31,277 bases of DNA from a virus: the IMG/VR virus record IMGVR_UViG_3300022204_000016, positions 1 through 31,277 of that record. One strand, 5' to 3'. The translations under genes were made by a program, and so were the position numbers. This document shows, one piece after another, positions 2,818 through 31,277 of the stretch (positions are counted from its first letter, which is position 1; each line of letters begins with the position of its first letter). The notes beneath the pieces are model-generated. The model was given only the letters and a program-made list of their open reading frames with translations. It was not told the origin of the DNA and ran no database searches.

Positions 2818-3099
2818 TCACAACTTTAAGTAGCAGCCTTCCAAATAACGAGATTGCCCTTCGCTGAGTAGCTGATTCTTGATGAAAACTTTTTCTAAAC
2901 AGCTCATTACAAAGTTACGCTCTTTGGTACTTAGGACCAGCGGAGACTGCATGATTTCCTCTAACATGCAATCGTCTGACGGCAAGGGTTTCAACTTCAG
3001 TCGGGTGCGGAAAAAATTCATAGCTTCCCTATGAGTTTTCATAGATTTTACTGTTTCACGCATGGACGTTTTGGTTGGACTTATGCTATGAAGATTCAT
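2818..3099 (-). CDS. Hypothetical protein
   Basis: A 93-aa leftward gene. I place the start at the ATG at 3099 because it has AAGGAAG seven bases upstream; a 118-aa reading from 3174 lacks such a site. The N-terminus is polar and basic (SPTKTSMRETVKSMKTHREAM). The C-terminal half is helical, with alternating charged and hydrophobic residues (LSTKERNFVMSCLEKVF, LLSEGQSRYLEGCYLKL). The last segment has the look of small phage proteins that end in a short helix pair, but I do not recognise a family. Function unknown. Confidence 0.55.
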   Translation of the reverse strand: MNLHSISPTKTSMRETVKSMKTHREAMNFFRTRLKLKPLPSDDCMLEEIMQSPLVLSTKERNFVMSCLEKVFIKNQLLSEGQSRYLEGCYLKL

Positions 3100-3212
3100 A
3101 TCAAGTCTTCCTTTCCCTGTAGAGGAAGCATCATTGCTTAGCCTCGCTTTGTTGCAAAAACAGGGCTTAAGCAAAGAGATGGGCTCGATACCTAAATAAA
3201 ATTACACTTCGT

Positions 3213-3509
3213 CTAGTTTCCATTCCTATTTCTATTCTCTAATGAGTGTTTGATCATTTCAATAAATCTATTCAAATCATCTTCACGAACTATATTAAGA
3301 ATGGTTATAACCTTCATAGCCCATTCTCTGTCCTTCTGTTTCTGCTCCTCTGTTAAGTCCTCATATGGCATCCAACAAGCAGACCATCTTGTACGTGTAT
3401 CGTCATCTACTTTATCGGCAATAGCCTTTGACCAATGCATCCATTGTTCATGCTCCAACCTAGCCAGGTATTCTAAGATTTCCAATTCTGAGTTGAACAT
3501 TAGACCCAT
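3213..3509 (-). CDS. RyR-domain-like small protein
   Basis: A 98-aa protein with the segment LARLEHEQWMHWSKAI near residues 16-31. An aromatic/acidic stretch, WMPYEDLTEEQKQKDREWA, follows near 46-64. The pattern EHE.WM ... PYE.L ... K..DR resembles the RyR domain found in ryanodine receptors and in many small phage proteins of unknown role. The remainder is helical and charged, ending in a polar RNRNGN tail. It follows the 136-aa gene with a 6-base gap, so the two are probably co-transcribed. Ligand and role in the phage are unknown. Confidence 0.6.
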   Translation of the reverse strand: MGLMFNSELEILEYLARLEHEQWMHWSKAIADKVDDDTRTRWSACWMPYEDLTEEQKQKDREWAMKVITILNIVREDDLNRFIEMIKHSLENRNRNGN

Positions 3510-3515
3510 GGATAT

Positions 3516-3926
3516 TTAATTCTTTTTAGGCAGAAACCCACCAGCATCAAGCTCATCTTCAATATATTGCTTCATAGCCTTCTTAAAGAGCGGCAACAAG
3601 CTCGGATCAGCCATTTCGAGCAACGTCTCGTACTCGTTAAATGTCAATTCTCCGTCGCCTTGAATCCGCTTGGACAACCTCTTCAAGTCCACCTCGAACT
3701 CGCGACCGAACGGCCCGCGCAGCGTTCTAGCAATCATTCCGGCCTCATCGTCAACAGGAGCATCGCCCCACTGCAACAAGTATTTATTGAATAAAACCGA
3801 TGGACTCATGCTTGCCAATATAACCGATTTATGGTCAAATTGAAGTACGGGAATCTTTCCAACAGATTCCTCCCGAAAGTTCTTTTGTAAGAAACTGCAC
3901 CTAAAGGCGGGCCCCTTGTAACTCAA
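3516..3926 (-). CDS. Hypothetical protein
   Basis: A 136-aa frame from TTG 3926; an internal ATG (residue 40, MSPSVLFNKYLLQW) could be the true start. A GGAAGGA lies about 12 bases before the TTG, which is long spacing. The protein is acidic at its C-terminus (YIEDELDAGGF) with helical segments around LTFNEYETLLEMADPSLLPLF. No domain is recognised. It is the first gene left of the divergent switch region, so it is probably expressed from a leftward promoter there. Confidence 0.5.
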   Translation of the reverse strand: MSYKGPAFRCSFLQKNFREESVGKIPVLQFDHKSVILASMSPSVLFNKYLLQWGDAPVDDEAGMIARTLRGPFGREFEVDLKRLSKRIQGDGELTFNEYETLLEMADPSLLPLFKKAMKQYIEDELDAGGFLPKKN

Positions 3927-13300: not shown

Positions 13301-13942
13301 ATGGCAGATAAAAAGCCACTGAGGATTTCAGATGATACTAACGATTTGCAGCCAGTTGAATTTGCTGCAGCCGATAGCGTGGGAATCGTTGATGGCGGCA
13401 CTAGCGCCACAACTGCCAATGGCGCATTAAATAATCTATTGCCATCTCAAGCGGGGAACAACGGTAAAGTTTTGGGCACCAACGGAAGTAACACCTCATG
13501 GGTCGATTCTTCAACAAATGGGGCTGGAGTAGGCGGTGTTAGAGTTAATTTCTGGAGCGATGGGTCTACTTATAATAAATGGCTTCGCAGAGACAACAAC
13601 CATTCCGAACCAAGCGGACCTAACTCTGAAAGCAAAAGCGAACCATGGGTTTTTGTGTTTGCAGGTGAAATTAGAGCACTGTCCTTTGTTAATAAAAAGA
13701 TTGACTCGGACACAGATATACAGATTTTTAAAAACGGCACACTTCAATTCACGTGGAATATTTTGAATAAAAAATGGGCCACCAAGACTAACCTAACTCC
13801 GATAGTTTTTGCCGCAGGAGATAAACTTTCAGTATTTGCCAAAGAAATTGGTGGAGGCGACAAACCTGAGGATGTTTTGCTTGATGTCTATATAGCCTTT
13901 ACTAATAGCGTGGCTCAAGAGCTTGGCGGGGGGACTTTGTAA
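13301..13942 (+). CDS. Head-fibre or fibre-neck protein
   Basis: A 213-aa protein with GAGAGG ahead of its ATG. The N-terminus contains [20 protein letters not shown] and [15 protein letters not shown] (about 37-71), a module often found in phage fibre proteins. The second half is a beta domain ([32 protein letters not shown]) with the look of a jelly-roll or receptor-binding domain. It is joined to the collagen-like fibre gene by a TAATG junction, so the two probably build one appendage. Confidence 0.6.
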
Positions 13943-15633
13943 TGTCCAAATTTATAAAAAATGATTCCGGGACTACAAAAACATATCTTGGCAGTCAGTT
14001 AATAAATCAAGAGATTTTAAAGCTTGAATATGATTGGGTTTTTAAATGGTCTGAAGAAGCAAGAAACCCGTCGTCGACAATCTATTCTGACATACTCTCT
14101 GGGGCTATAAAGGTCAGCGAAGACAATTTTGTCACGACTATGAGCGCAGCCGATGGGCTTGTGTTTATTCAGGCCATAGATGCGGGATGCATTCGCCAAG
14201 TCTTGGTCGATGATACCGCAAAAGCTGATAACAAGTTCCTAAAATACAATGCGACCAGTAAAAAAATAGAATACGCAGACGCCATTGTTCAATCAAACCA
14301 AGTTATCTATAGGCTCTACAATGATCAATATGAGGATAACAATCTTGGTATCTATTTTGATACTGGTCCAGTAGTTAGTGTCTGGGGGAGAATCAACGCG
14401 TGGAAAGATGACGCCAATGTAGGCAGTGGATTCACACGTCAAAAAGTTGCAATTAATAATATAATAGACGCAGGAGATGATACCGTCGTTATCGTTGGCG
14501 ATTATACCGCTTATTTTAAAAACGATAACGCGATAAGGATTGTTGGCTCAACTTCTAACAACGGCCTCTATACAATAAGAAACGATTCGATTTTAAACGC
14601 CGGCAAAACTGAAATTAAAATAGATAATGGATTTCCAAATCCTGCTGATTTCACTGGCTATATTCTTTTGGGCGATGTCGTTGTTACAGCTGCGGGCGCT
14701 GGTTATAATCTATTTTCCTTCAACTGCTCCATAGACGCGAATAACTTTGATTTTGAAGTGGGCCTTTTTAAGGACAACGCACTAATCCCCGGTAGCATAT
14801 CTATGTGCCACCCTCCAGCTGCGGGCGACAACCAATGTTTGTCTATAACCTTTCCCATAAATCTAGTTCAAGGTTCCGTTTATGACATTAGATTCAGAAG
14901 CGGCTCGGGCACTAACAAAGAAGGTTGGATCGAGCAGAGCAATATAGCGTTTACGCGATTTCAGGGAGTTCAAGGACCCGCTGGACCGCAAGGCCCACAA
15001 GGAACTGTCGGACCCACGGGTGCAGGTGGACCCACCGGGCCAACTGGAGCACAAGGGCCAGTTGGCGCGACTGGACCAGCGGGGGCTCAAGGAATTCAGG
15101 GACCACAAGGGCCCCAAGGTCCAGCTGGTTCTGCCAATATCAGCTTAAAGGACGAGGGCTCGCTAATAACGAACACCCCGCATGGAACCCTAAACTTTGT
15201 GGGCGCCGGAGTGGTTGTAACAGACAATGCCGACGGCTCGGCTAATGTGACAATTTCTGGTGGAACCTCAGTATTTGGCCAACAATATCAGTATATTGAA
15301 AGTGAGGCTGACACCAGCACAACATCTTCAAGCTGGGTGGATAAGCTAACACTCACAACAACCTCATTGCCTTTAGGAGATTATCGAATCGGTTTTAACT
15401 ATACTCCAGGATGTGACTCAAACGGGGTAATCATGCACTATAGAGTAACAAAAGACGGGGTCTCTTTTGACGACGCGTCTTTTGAAGCTGATAACGATAG
15501 GCATGAATTTGCTGGCTTTAAAAAATTCTCGGCCATTAGCGGAATCCAGACATTTAAAATTCAATTCAAAAGCAATGGAACCGCTACCTGTAGAATCAGA
15601 ACTGCAAGGCTAGAACTCTGGAGAGTCGCATAA
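13942..15633 (+). CDS. Collagen-like fibre protein
   Basis: A 563-aa fibre. Residues 342-395 are 18 consecutive Gly-X-Y triplets rich in Pro, Gln and Thr (encoded at 14965-15126), expected to form a triple helix. A beta module [19 protein letters not shown] (about 410-430) follows, then a C-terminal jelly-roll-like domain starting [16 protein letters not shown] that ends in [11 protein letters not shown]; this C-terminal type is often paired with collagen repeats in phages. The N-terminal part contains a small beta domain ([15 protein letters not shown], about 197-211). Position before the connector genes suggests a head or neck fibre rather than a tail-tip fibre. Confidence 0.75.
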
Positions 15634-27113: not shown

Positions 27114-27401
27114 ATGGGAGATCCAAGCCAGCTAGCTTCTGTTGTAGAAAAAGGCCCATGGGCCGCTATGGTTATCATTCTTCTTTGGCTTGCTCGGGAA
27201 GTGATGGGGAATCTCAGACAGAAGCAAGACAAGTTCGAAGACGCGCTAAAAGAAAACACGGTAGCTGTAATCAAGCTCACCACAGAGCTGGCACAAATGG
27301 AAAAAGCGTTATCAGCATTGCCTAAAATGCAGCAGGACATAAACGAAGCGCATAGGAAACTCCGGGGGGAGAAAGATGTTAGAGCGGAAAGTTCCGGTTA
27401 A
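27114..27401 (+). CDS. Putative holin
   Basis: A 95-aa protein. I use the ATG at 27114, with GGGGGGAG ahead, rather than an upstream frame opening at 27054 that runs through the hairpin. It has one predicted membrane segment (WAAMVIILLWLAREVM, about 16-31). A long charged coiled coil follows (KQDKFEDALKENTVAV, EKALSALPKMQQDIN). The gene overlaps the endolysin by 26 bases. A single-span protein with a coiled-coil tail in this place is typical of phage holins such as BhlA-type, but it could also be another lysis accessory. Confidence 0.55.
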   Translation: MGDPSQLASVVEKGPWAAMVIILLWLAREVMGNLRQKQDKFEDALKENTVAVIKLTTELAQMEKALSALPKMQQDINEAHRKLRGEKDVRAESSG

Positions 27402-27807
27402 AAGGATTATAATTCATTGCTCAGCATTCGAAGGGCATCACGATATAAAAGAAATCACCGAATGGCATCACAAGCGTGGCTTTGAAGAAGTAGGCTACCA
27501 TTACGTTATAACCACGGACGGCACGATTCAAACAGGCCGCAACATGAAGTTCATAGGCGCTCACTGCAAGAATGAGAACTTTGACTCCATTGGCATATGC
27601 CTGTGCGGTTTGAAGGAATTCTCAGAGAGGCAGCTTGTGGCTATGAGAGTTTGGGTTCGAAAGCTAATGCTTGAGCACAATGTTAAAATCACAAACGTGT
27701 TTGGACATTACGAGTTTGATAAGAACAAGACCTGCCCGAATATTCCAACCTCAGTGCTCAGATTCATCATATCCAGAAACGATTCACCTAGCTCAGGGCT
27801 GAGCTAG
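27376..27807 (+). CDS. Endolysin, N-acetylmuramoyl-L-alanine amidase
   Basis: Zinc amidase that cleaves the bond between muramic acid and the first L-alanine of peptidoglycan. The 143-aa protein is close to T7 lysozyme in layout. HCSA (H14) is the first zinc ligand. GYHYV (Y41) follows, then GAHCK, and GHYEFDKNKTCPN supplies the second His (H111), Lys118 and Cys120. All residues needed by this family are present. It is a single catalytic domain with no binding module, which fits a Gram-negative host. The stop codon lies inside the terminator hairpin at 27788-27807, and the gene ends overlap those of the leftward phospholipase. Confidence 0.9.
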   Translation: MLERKVPVKRIIIHCSAFEGHHDIKEITEWHHKRGFEEVGYHYVITTDGTIQTGRNMKFIGAHCKNENFDSIGICLCGLKEFSERQLVAMRVWVRKLMLEHNVKITNVFGHYEFDKNKTCPNIPTSVLRFIISRNDSPSSGLS

Positions 27808-27821
27808 CTCTTCTTTTTTCC
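27788..27821 (+). terminator. Intrinsic terminator after endolysin
   Basis: A perfect 8-bp stem CTAGCTCA (27788-27795) / TGAGCTAG (27800-27807) with a 4-base loop, followed by CTCTTCTTTTTTCC. It includes the endolysin stop codon. The T-run is on the rightward strand only, so rightward late transcription is stopped before the oppositely oriented phospholipase. Confidence 0.85.
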
Positions 27822-28638
27822 ATTCATCTAACAGATGCTTGGCCCAGTTGTAGCCTTGATAGATGCCCTGCTTTATTTTCTCCTGCTCAAAGTCCATTAC
27901 TCCCATAATCTCCATGGGTGGGGCTATAACTCTGATTTTAACCTCGCTGATTTTGCCGTGCTCACTCCACAGCTCACATACCTCCACGTCCTCCCAATAC
28001 CCCTCATCGAGCATGATATTGATAGTTCGCTCAGCCACTTGCTTGATATTCGTTATTTTGTGCACCTTTGGCAGCGGCTCTTTGATGTCCTTAGGGGAGT
28101 TTATGAACATGTAGACCTCTGTCGCGCCACGGCGAATGGCCTCTCGAACTGGGACATTTTCTCTCACGCCGCCGTCTATCCACTCCCCATCCACTGGATT
28201 TGTTATGATGGGTAGAGATGCGCTGGCTAGAACTTGTTTCTGAAATCCTAGCTCTCCTGACGTTGTGCGTTTTATTTTACCTGTTTTTAGACTCACTGAA
28301 TTCACTGTTACTGGAAATTGAGGCAGTCTACCCACCATAATTCGAGCGATCTTTTTCTCCAATGGGCCTGAATCGTATAGGGATTTGGCTCCAAATAACA
28401 CTCTTAAGAAGCTAGGGGAGGTTTTGCGGAATATATCGCTCCTTGCTTTTATAGATAACCAAAGAGCTTCTAGTTGTTCGATTCCCGCATAGGATATGCC
28501 TACGGCGTTGAGCGCGCCTACTGAATTGGCAGTCACAAAATGCGGCGTGATTCCACTGCCTAGAACAGCTTTAAGTGCTCCACATTGCCATGCGCCCGAA
28601 GCGCCTCCCCCAGCCAATACAAATGCTATTCTCTGCAT
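27793..28638 (-). CDS. Patatin-like phospholipase
   Basis: Probable lipid acyl hydrolase, 281 aa. The oxyanion-hole motif GGGASG is at 10-15. The nucleophile elbow ANSVGALNA contains Ser39; the first position of the GxSxG motif is Ala. The catalytic Asp155 lies in DGGVRENVP, preceded by LASASLPIITNPV as in patatin families. There is no signal peptide, so the product is cytoplasmic unless released by the holin. It is on the opposite strand to all surrounding late genes, convergent with the endolysin and divergent from the tail-tip gene. GGGGAGG lies five bases before its ATG and a TATACT lies further upstream. The family's role in phages is not established. Confidence 0.88.
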   Translation of the reverse strand: MQRIAFVLAGGGASGAWQCGALKAVLGSGITPHFVTANSVGALNAVGISYAGIEQLEALWLSIKARSDIFRKTSPSFLRVLFGAKSLYDSGPLEKKIARIMVGRLPQFPVTVNSVSLKTGKIKRTTSGELGFQKQVLASASLPIITNPVDGEWIDGGVRENVPVREAIRRGATEVYMFINSPKDIKEPLPKVHKITNIKQVAERTINIMLDEGYWEDVEVCELWSEHGKISEVKIRVIAPPMEIMGVMDFEQEKIKQGIYQGYNWAKHLLDEWKKEELAQP

Positions 28639-28675
28639 TCAAACCTCCCCTTAAATCAAGTATACTGGGAGTCGC
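28639..28675. promoter_or_regulatory. Divergent gap between phospholipase and tail-tip gene
   Basis: A 37-base gap carrying ribosome sites for both directions: GGGGAGG for the leftward phospholipase and GGGAG for the rightward gene. TATACT on the minus strand could be a -10 for the phospholipase, but I see no matching -35 at normal spacing. A promoter must exist somewhere near, because the phospholipase is cut off from other leftward transcription. Confidence 0.35.
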
Positions 28676-30922
28676 ATGACCCTACCCGTCACCAATCCAA
28701 CGCTAGCCAAGTTGAAGGATATAAATATCGAGCCGCATCTTGTGCTGTGCATCGAAGGTTTGGATTATTGCTTTACAAATGTGACGATCAAAGAGCTGAT
28801 TCGCTACGGTATGCCGGATTTGTTTTACGGCGACCCTGTAGTTTATGGTGGGGTACGGCCTATCAGCACTCAGAAAGAATATATATCAGGCCAGGGAACA
28901 TCCAATTCTATTAAGCAGCAGCTTCAGCCCGACAAGGGTGCAGTTAGCTCAGTCAGTACCATGACCATTCGCATGATTGATAAGAATCAGGATGTCACAC
29001 GTTTGATATCCCCAGGCTTTGAGCTGCCCGAGCCATTCGGGGCACGTGCCACAGTGTACATGGGCTTTGGTGATACGGCCTTTCCAGAGGATTACCTGAT
29101 AATTCATGCGGGTGTGATATCGGATATCAAAGCCGGTGCAGGTTGGGTGGAGCTTTCAATCAACTCACCTGAAGAGAAAAAACGTCAGAAGATATTTGCA
29201 AAAACTGAGACAAAGTTAAACGGAGCGCTCAACGCTGGTGTGACTACATCGCTAACTCATGAGCCTCTGACAAATGATCAAGGCTTTTTATTGCCTGCGG
29301 ATGCGCTGCGCACGTTCGTTCGAATAGACGATGAGATCATTGAGTACACCACAGCTCCCACAGCCACTAGCCTTGGCGGTTTAACTCGTGGTCAATTCAC
29401 TGTATCTGGAGGCAGCCCTGATACCAATCATGCCGATGAGGCTGAGATCACATCCATATACGTGCTAGAGGGGCACCCGATTGACTTGGCCCTTAAGATT
29501 ATGCTTTCAGACGGGCCTCAGTATTACAGTGAGGATGTTCCCGCTGTGAGATTTGAGCAGATAACTGGAACGCTTAATATTCCAAACGCGGTATTTTTGG
29601 AGAATGTTGATATCTATAGGCTCAACGGAGTCACGCGTGGCGATAAGGTCACAATCACAGGTGCTGCTAATGGCGCAAACAATGTGACCGATGCGGTTAT
29701 TGACAGCGTTGTTAAAACGGATCTGGGAAGCTACTTAGTTCTAACAGGCGTATCGCTTGTGTCAGAGATAGGCTCGTCGGCTTTGGTTAAGTTCTCCAGT
29801 CGCTACAACGTGCTGGGTACGGGGGCAGGCCTTGGCATGATTCCAGTTGAAGTTGACATTGTTCAACACGAAGAGCTTCGGCAGGGATTTCTAGCAAGCG
29901 CTGCGAACGTTCGCATCTATTTGAAAGAAGAAGTTGAGGGCAAAGAGCTTATTGAGAAAGAATTGTATTTGCCGTTTACAGGATACAGCCTACCCAGAAG
30001 TGGCAAAGCCTCAATGGGTGCGCATTTGCCTCCTATACCTGGCTCTGAGATTCAGTTCCTAGATCAGGACAACATCAAGGCACCGAGTACGATTAAGATT
30101 CGCCGAAGCTTTGGAAAGAATTTCTATAACCAGATTATATATAAATACGACGAGCTTATTGTTGAGGAACGTTTTGTTGGTGGAACGATAAGTGTTGATC
30201 AAGACTCAATTGACGAGATAGGCAAAAAATCCAGCCTTGTGATAGAGGCTCTGGGTTTGCGAACGGATTTGCAAGCTGGCAGCAGCACGCTAACATCCTC
30301 TCAGAGATTTTTGCTACGCTATAGGCGGGGTGCTGAATACTTTGAAGGCATTCGGGTGCTCTTTAGGGTAGGTGCGAGAATAGAGCCAGGCGATATTGTT
30401 AGCTTTGATTTTGAGGGTCTTCAGGTCAGCAACACTCGTGATGGTAATAGGAATAAGAAAACCCGGCTGTTTGAAGTTATCAACAAATCGTTGGATCTAA
30501 AGACAGGTGATGTGACACTTGATCTTGTTGATACGAATTTCGATGGCAATGACCGTTTTGGGCTATTTAGCCCCTCAAGCTATATCAAGAGCGGGCTATC
30601 CACGACCCAGTTTGTTATTGGCCAATCGTTTACAGCGCCTTTTGGGATAGATGAGTTTAGGAAGTGGGAAGACATAGTGGGTTGTGCGGTTAAGATTCGC
30701 AATTCAGCCTATACATTGCAGAGTGACAGCTTTGTAACCTCGGCTAGTAGCAATACGATAACGGTATCACCTGCGCTCTCGTTTGTGCCTTCAGCTGGTA
30801 TGTTAATGGAGTTTGCTCACTATGATTTGCAAACTGACCGTGTGAAAGTAATATACACCTTTATGACAGACGATGGGAATCAGTTCCCGTCTGATAATGG
30901 TGACCCGTACACCTTTGCATAG
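28676..30922 (+). CDS. Large tail-tip (hub-like) protein
   Basis: A 748-aa protein, the only large structural gene after the lysis segment. GGGAG precedes its ATG. The first 200 residues are beta-rich with long strands (TMTIRMIDKNQDVTRLI, YLIIHAGVISDIKAGAG), as in tail-hub proteins. A domain with DDEIIEYTTAPTATSLGGLT (about 222-241) recurs in phage tail-tip proteins. An insert near 310-360 (IYRLNGVTRGDKVTITGAAN) resembles a beta module. The late part has LRYRRGAEYFEGIRVLFRVG and VISFDF-like strands. Tail-tip or hub role is inferred from size and fold pattern. Confidence 0.6.
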   Translation: MTLPVTNPTLAKLKDINIEPHLVLCIEGLDYCFTNVTIKELIRYGMPDLFYGDPVVYGGVRPISTQKEYISGQGTSNSIKQQLQPDKGAVSSVSTMTIRMIDKNQDVTRLISPGFELPEPFGARATVYMGFGDTAFPEDYLIIHAGVISDIKAGAGWVELSINSPEEKKRQKIFAKTETKLNGALNAGVTTSLTHEPLTNDQGFLLPADALRTFVRIDDEIIEYTTAPTATSLGGLTRGQFTVSGGSPDTNHADEAEITSIYVLEGHPIDLALKIMLSDGPQYYSEDVPAVRFEQITGTLNIPNAVFLENVDIYRLNGVTRGDKVTITGAANGANNVTDAVIDSVVKTDLGSYLVLTGVSLVSEIGSSALVKFSSRYNVLGTGAGLGMIPVEVDIVQHEELRQGFLASAANVRIYLKEEVEGKELIEKELYLPFTGYSLPRSGKASMGAHLPPIPGSEIQFLDQDNIKAPSTIKIRRSFGKNFYNQIIYKYDELIVEERFVGGTISVDQDSIDEIGKKSSLVIEALGLRTDLQAGSSTLTSSQRFLLRYRRGAEYFEGIRVLFRVGARIEPGDIVSFDFEGLQVSNTRDGNRNKKTRLFEVINKSLDLKTGDVTLDLVDTNFDGNDRFGLFSPSSYIKSGLSTTQFVIGQSFTAPFGIDEFRKWEDIVGCAVKIRNSAYTLQSDSFVTSASSNTITVSPALSFVPSAGMLMEFAHYDLQTDRVKVIYTFMTDDGNQFPSDNGDPYTFA

Positions 30923-30932
30923 GAGATAAGAA

Positions 30933-31277
30933 ATGGCTGACGTACCTGGCGCGCTCGTTAAAATGTTGGTTGAAGAATTAGACTTTCGCTCGCCTAACTC
31001 AGAGGCCGTTCAAACCAAGATCGGCGCTAATATCAATGCGCTTATAGATAACGATGCAGCCAGGTTGTTGAAAGCGCAATCTTTCACAGCCAGTGGTACT
31101 TTTAATGCCCCATCAACTCTGACCTTTAACCGAGCTTTATGCTGGGGTTGGGGTGGAGGAGGCGGCGGTGGAGGCGGCGGGGGTTCTGATGCAGCTGGCG
31201 GCGGCAATGCTGGCGGCGGCGGCTCTGGCGGCGGGGCCTCATTCCCCGGCTGGCGTATTGTGACTATCTCAGCTGGC
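30933..31277 (+). CDS. Gly-rich fibre protein, cut by window end
   Basis: At least 115 aa; the frame is open to the edge. AGGAG precedes the ATG at 30933. An N-terminal helix (ALVKMLVEELDFRSPNS) is followed by SFTASGTFNAPSTLTF and then a Gly-rich tract beginning WGWGGGG at about residue 70 and including GGGNAGGGGSGGGASFPG. This is the pattern of glycine-rich receptor-binding or adhesin domains at the ends of phage fibres. The rest of the gene lies to the right. Confidence 0.7.
   Translation, partial: MADVPGALVKMLVEELDFRSPNSEAVQTKIGANINALIDNDAARLLKAQSFTASGTFNAPSTLTFNRALCWGWGGGGGGGGGGGSDAAGGGNAGGGGSGGGASFPGWRIVTISAG

Follow-up and report, generated by a model that had tools for sequence, protein, structure and literature searches.

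The lysis region of the viral contig analyzed here (IMG/VR record IMGVR_UViG_3300022204_000016, positions 1 to 31,277, hereafter the window) carries a patatin-like phospholipase gene, a patchy accessory gene that is inserted antisense exactly at the junction between the endolysin gene and a conserved tail-type gene, tail748. We tentatively propose, at somewhat less than an even chance, that its product is a late-acting cytosolic phospholipase A that helps to disrupt the host envelope. Phage patatins are already known from phage WO, a megaphage and Burkholderia prophages, where their role has only been guessed, and the window locus offers a small, tractable case in which an ordinary holin-amidase cassette is joined by a patatin where kin have none.

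The patatin gene and its product

The gene (27793-28638, minus strand) encodes a protein of 281 amino acids and was defined from the open reading frame list, Pfam, conservation, an AlphaFold2 model and a PDB match. A strong Shine-Dalgarno sequence, read directly from the DNA, is located 5 nt upstream of the ATG (AAGGGGAGG, 28644-28652, minus strand). Because the protein scored 80.1 bits against PF01734 in Pfam (cut-off 27.7, E 3.2e-22), the match is not due to chance, and we regard the identification of the product as a patatin as close to certain; among PHROG families no match was found at E values up to 0.1. The GC content, GC3 and codon usage of the gene agree with those of the rest of the phage, and this phage-like codon usage, together with the flanking phage genes, rules out host contamination or a recently acquired foreign gene.

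The active site, which an earlier note on this DNA had described as complete, does contain the catalytic dyad, Ser39 in ANSVG and Asp155 in DGG (D155-G156-G157), and the oxyanion hole, a GGGASG loop at residues 10-15 (G10-G11-G12, G15), but its nucleophile elbow is a variant. Among 125 aligned patatins, Ser39 is kept in all and Asp155 in 124, the remaining row having a gap, and position 1 of the GxSxG motif is glycine in 122, cysteine in 2 and alanine only in the window protein, whose A-N-S-V-G elbow retains the serine and the second glycine and replaces the first with a small residue. Elbows of the AxSxG type occur in active Bacillus lipases. An AlphaFold2 model built from an 18-row alignment of the window protein and viral homologues (pLDDT 84.8, pTM 0.85) shows a predicted patatin fold with an intact Ser-Asp dyad. 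Its closest solved structure is that of PlpD (5fya; Z 28.0, 2.6 Å over 241 residues, 23% identity), and it also resembles CapV/CapE (Z 25-27), plant patatin (Z 25.9) and iPLA2-beta (Z 23.8). PlpD possesses a secretion (beta-barrel) part. While the window protein shares the Ser-Asp dyad motifs of the Pseudomonas aeruginosa PlpD patatin domain (PDB 5fya/5fqu), it consists of a patatin domain alone and differs by the alanine at the first GxSxG position. Neither Pfam nor the model revealed a second domain, be it a structural domain, a signal or a fusion, and the protein begins right at beta-strand 1, so that it should be cytosolic, and we infer phospholipase A or lysophospholipase activity for it.

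The fold is shared with CapV and CapE, which are likewise stand-alone cytosolic proteins, and a weak PADLOC effector match (E 0.0012) would agree with a phage-borne, cyclic-nucleotide-activated effector of the CBASS type. Nevertheless, the PADLOC scan of the 39 window proteins revealed no CD-NTase that could act as cyclase partner, and the score against the NCBIfam CBASS_lipase model, 17.6 bits, fell far below the cut-off of 200. On these grounds we rejected the CBASS reading, to which we give hardly any weight, and the earlier note's view of a stand-alone enzyme with no nucleotide-sensing partner is supported.

Insertion at the endolysin/tail748 junction

The contig derives from a tailed phage (Erf, ParB-like protein, terminase, portal, capsid, fibres, a C1q-domain fibre and amidase) in which early genes occupy the minus strand at the left end and late genes the plus strand from about 4.2 kb; the patatin gene is the only clear minus-strand gene inside the late region. 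As had been noted from the sequence, it lies on the opposite strand beside the lysis genes. The first of these (27114-27401, plus strand) is a holin-like or inner-spanin-like ORF of 95 aa with an N-terminal hydrophobic segment and a charged coiled coil, a layout also seen in kin proteins; its matches are weak (PHROG Rz-like spanin, E 0.013; Pfam BhlA holin, E 0.043). The second (27376-27807, plus strand) encodes an N-acetylmuramoyl-L-alanine amidase endolysin (Amidase_2, Pfam E 6.5e-17; PHROG amidase, E 1.1e-34) in which a signal peptide was not seen. The patatin gene converges on the endolysin gene, with a 15 bp overlap at the amidase stop, and a hairpin with a T-rich tail in the plus direction only (27788-27817) is the likely terminator of the lysis genes. 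The endolysin gene is separated from tail748 (28676-30922, plus strand; PHROG tail fiber, E 4e-4) by 868 bp, which hold the antisense patatin. The contig stops 355 bp beyond tail748, within a glycine-rich tail-type ORF (30933-31277) that is cut off by the contig end, and the genes farther downstream lie out of view. In the head-side gene cluster, a fibre-type protein with collagen-like GPxGPx repeats is encoded at 13942-15633.

Neither the portal nor tail748 matched any of 50,697 phage records, which indicates that the lineage is uncultured, and kin were therefore taken from IMG/VR, L002-L007 via tail748 and 49 loci via the portal. In L003, L006 and L227-L231, tail748 is preceded, at a distance of 0-4 bp, by a gene for an endolysin or a cell-wall-hydrolase-like enzyme; Pfam identifies CHAP in L006, L228 and L231, the L003 enzyme was assigned by eye as M15-like, and the L227 counterpart has no Pfam match. 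In other kin, an SLT or NlpC/P60 enzyme is encoded directly downstream of tail748. The endolysin type (CHAP, SLT, NlpC/P60, M15-like or, in the window, Amidase_2) is swapped freely around a fixed spot beside tail748. No patatin was found in the kin records (0/7 and 0/44, 51 in total), many of which are fragments. A close relative, L025 (portal 1e-104, TerL 6e-162), has a patatin gene in a different place, where it is in line with structural genes and just upstream of a g16157 homologue, and L020 and L021, which are linked to the window by the tape measure, carry one as well.

The antisense orientation, the gene's own Shine-Dalgarno sequence and this patchiness, that is, its absence from 7 and 44 kin records with kin junctions of 0-4 bp and its different locus in L025, favor a moron-type accessory gene with its own opposite-strand expression, which would remodel host membrane lipids or exclude superinfecting phages. 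The lysis genes would then be neighbors only because the junction tolerates insertions, as in the case of lambda bor, which is located downstream of Rz/Rz1. Patatins have also been reported among the morons of Burkholderia prophages (PMC2920897). However, the closest phage relatives of the gene run in line with late genes, and the best minus-strand promoter-like site matched only 9 of 12 consensus positions (a minus-strand terminator was likewise absent) in a consensus scan that is not proof of function. Moreover, there is no sign of lysogeny: no tyrosine or serine integrase was found in the window or in 12 related or patatin-bearing records, although these contigs may be incomplete. We consider the moron explanation, the main rival of a role in lysis, possible but doubtful, and a lysogenic-conversion gene, more specifically, is disfavored by the lack of such an integrase in all 13 records.

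Phage-only patatin clades

Cultured phages seldom carry patatins: matches, at 25-31% identity, turned up in just 6 of 50,697 phage records, and a scan of viral contigs with the single protein found no close relatives. Alignment-based scans, on the other hand, yielded 44 viral and 80 cellular patatin loci, and in the resulting tree the viral patatins group together (6 changes, versus 23.7 in shuffles). A first all-viral clade of 10 rows (L020, L021, L023, L025, L044, L051-L053, L056 and L057; support 97/93) is adjoined with moderate support (90/73) by L024 and the window protein, the long branch of which makes its exact placement unsure. A second all-viral clade comprises 15 rows (L026, L028-L030, L034-L036, L038, L039, L045, L047, L058-L060 and L065; support 95/92). 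Viral patatin genes are in line with the preceding gene in 36 of 38 cases, separated from it by no more than 30 nt in 26, and the window gene, inverted with respect to the late genes, is an exception. In the first clade the gene lies mostly between fibre-like and head-tail-joining genes, and this placement in line with late structural genes makes late expression of these patatins probable.

The location of the nearest-clade genes among fibre-like and head-tail-joining genes would also suit an enzyme that acts early or as part of the virion, being carried in the particle and used on the host membrane at entry. Since the window patatin possesses no structural domain, signal or fusion, and its gene is not in line with structural genes, we find such an enzyme distinctly unlikely here.

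Among the by-products of this analysis, the phage-only clades deserve most notice; the window gene itself is a phage patatin in an unusual position. That two such clades reside in late operons suggests enzymes kept for the phage's own use rather than passing host genes. The tailed phages concerned differ otherwise, yet in both clades the patatin gene runs in line with their late or structural genes, which suggests that phages have kept it over the long term. A separate viral group (L022, L040, L054 and L055) is found in replication-type neighborhoods beside exonuclease-type genes, outside tail and lysis modules. Two further loci are of other kinds. In L012 (CAKLQH020000002.1), one of the 6 matching phage records and labeled 'Acinetobacter phage', only host-type genes (bcr, yaaJ, tdcB, sbmA and pepO) flank the patatin, and the record is probably a mislabeled chromosome. 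In L016 (NZ_CP071949.1), a patatin-like gene (3037-3828) lies between merE and a DUF3330 gene and adjoins a Tn3-family transposase on a mercury-resistance plasmid. Large fibre-type proteins in L005 (7348-9363), L007 (7053-9086) and L023 (1201-2652) have apparent N-terminal Sec signal peptides, an unusual feature in virion proteins.

A possible role in envelope disruption

A role in lysis or exclusion, as suggested in the earlier note, is plausible for the window patatin, and of these we favor late envelope disruption. The patatin would be made during infection and would attack the phospholipids of the host membranes when the cycle ends, gaining access to the membrane from the cytosol or, with the likewise signal-less amidase, through the holin lesion. 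The inner and/or outer membrane would thereby be permeabilized, and envelope rupture would be accelerated or completed, in a role parallel to that of LysB in mycobacteriophages. The activity, timing, target membrane and effect on lysis that we infer for the enzyme draw on its fold and intact catalytic residues, its insertion exactly between two genes that are 0-4 bp apart in kin, and the membership of the nearest phage patatins in a phage-only clade that is in line with late structural genes. The antisense orientation to the late operon and the lack of a convincing minus-strand promoter argue against this role.

Lysis-linked viral patatins elsewhere also favor envelope disruption: the patatin gene follows a GH108 endolysin gene in L010 and an M15 endolysin gene in L037, precedes an amidase gene in L026 and a holin gene in L043, and lies about 2.4 kb downstream of an amidase gene on the L044 contig. 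Nevertheless, viral patatins in general are not significantly enriched next to lysis genes, as only 4 of the 39 others lie within two genes of a recognized lysis gene, compared with about 2.5 expected when each genome is roughly modeled as having a single two-gene cassette (P 0.24). Because adjacency is no better than chance, which weighs against the proposed role, the position of the window gene by itself proves nothing.

A better argument than adjacency is a local one, built on a lipoprotein of the kin, on its absence in line in the window and on the presence of the patatin at the adjacent junction. A small lipoprotein is encoded near the lysis genes, around the tail748 homologue, in all 12 kin examined (L002-L007 and L226-L231); 9 of the 12 pass a lipobox and Shine-Dalgarno test and 3 were assigned by eye. 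No lysis-region lipoprotein was found in line in the window, which covers only 355 bp past tail748, and the patatin may partly replace it. This argument is weakened by the early end of the contig, since several kin encode the lipoprotein downstream of tail748, in a stretch outside the window contig, and could be located past the contig end here as well. It is also weakened by L025 and L044, both of which carry a patatin and a lipoprotein, so that a strict exchange of one for the other is not general. A locus that lacks the kin lipoprotein and has a patatin where kin have none makes it testable whether the outer-membrane step of lysis can be carried out by lipolysis. It is improbable, though worth stating, that patatins provide a third, phospholipase-based lysis step, doing or assisting the outer-membrane job of spanins or lipoproteins in phages of (probably) Gram-negative hosts, and that tailed phages have come to share a phage-specific patatin lineage that serves to disrupt the envelope late in infection.

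Two precedents favor the envelope-disruption reading. In phage WO a patatin-based lytic cassette has been proposed, its lytic role being itself a proposal (PMC9203015). There, as in the window, the patatin stands beside a small holin-like protein with an N-terminal TM segment and a C-terminal coiled coil, and beside a tail module (PMC9203015), but WO has no endolysin, whereas the window has an adjacent Amidase_2 enzyme. Membership of the window protein in the WO patatin subfamily was rejected, as there is no BLASTP similarity and only a remote profile match. LysB, the function of which has been shown experimentally, is an accessory lipolytic enzyme able to serve the final lysis step (PMC6116114). 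Like the window patatin, it is a phage serine hydrolase encoded near lysis genes, and we propose it as an analogue for the outer-membrane step, although it is a cutinase-like alpha/beta-hydrolase that cuts mycolate esters and thus differs in fold and substrate. Patatin-like phospholipases of putative function are also encoded by the marine megaphage Mar_Mega_1 (PMC9723777) and by Burkholderia prophages (PMC2920897), but these are other types of phage, and their patatins have been read as possible host-virulence or metabolic genes.
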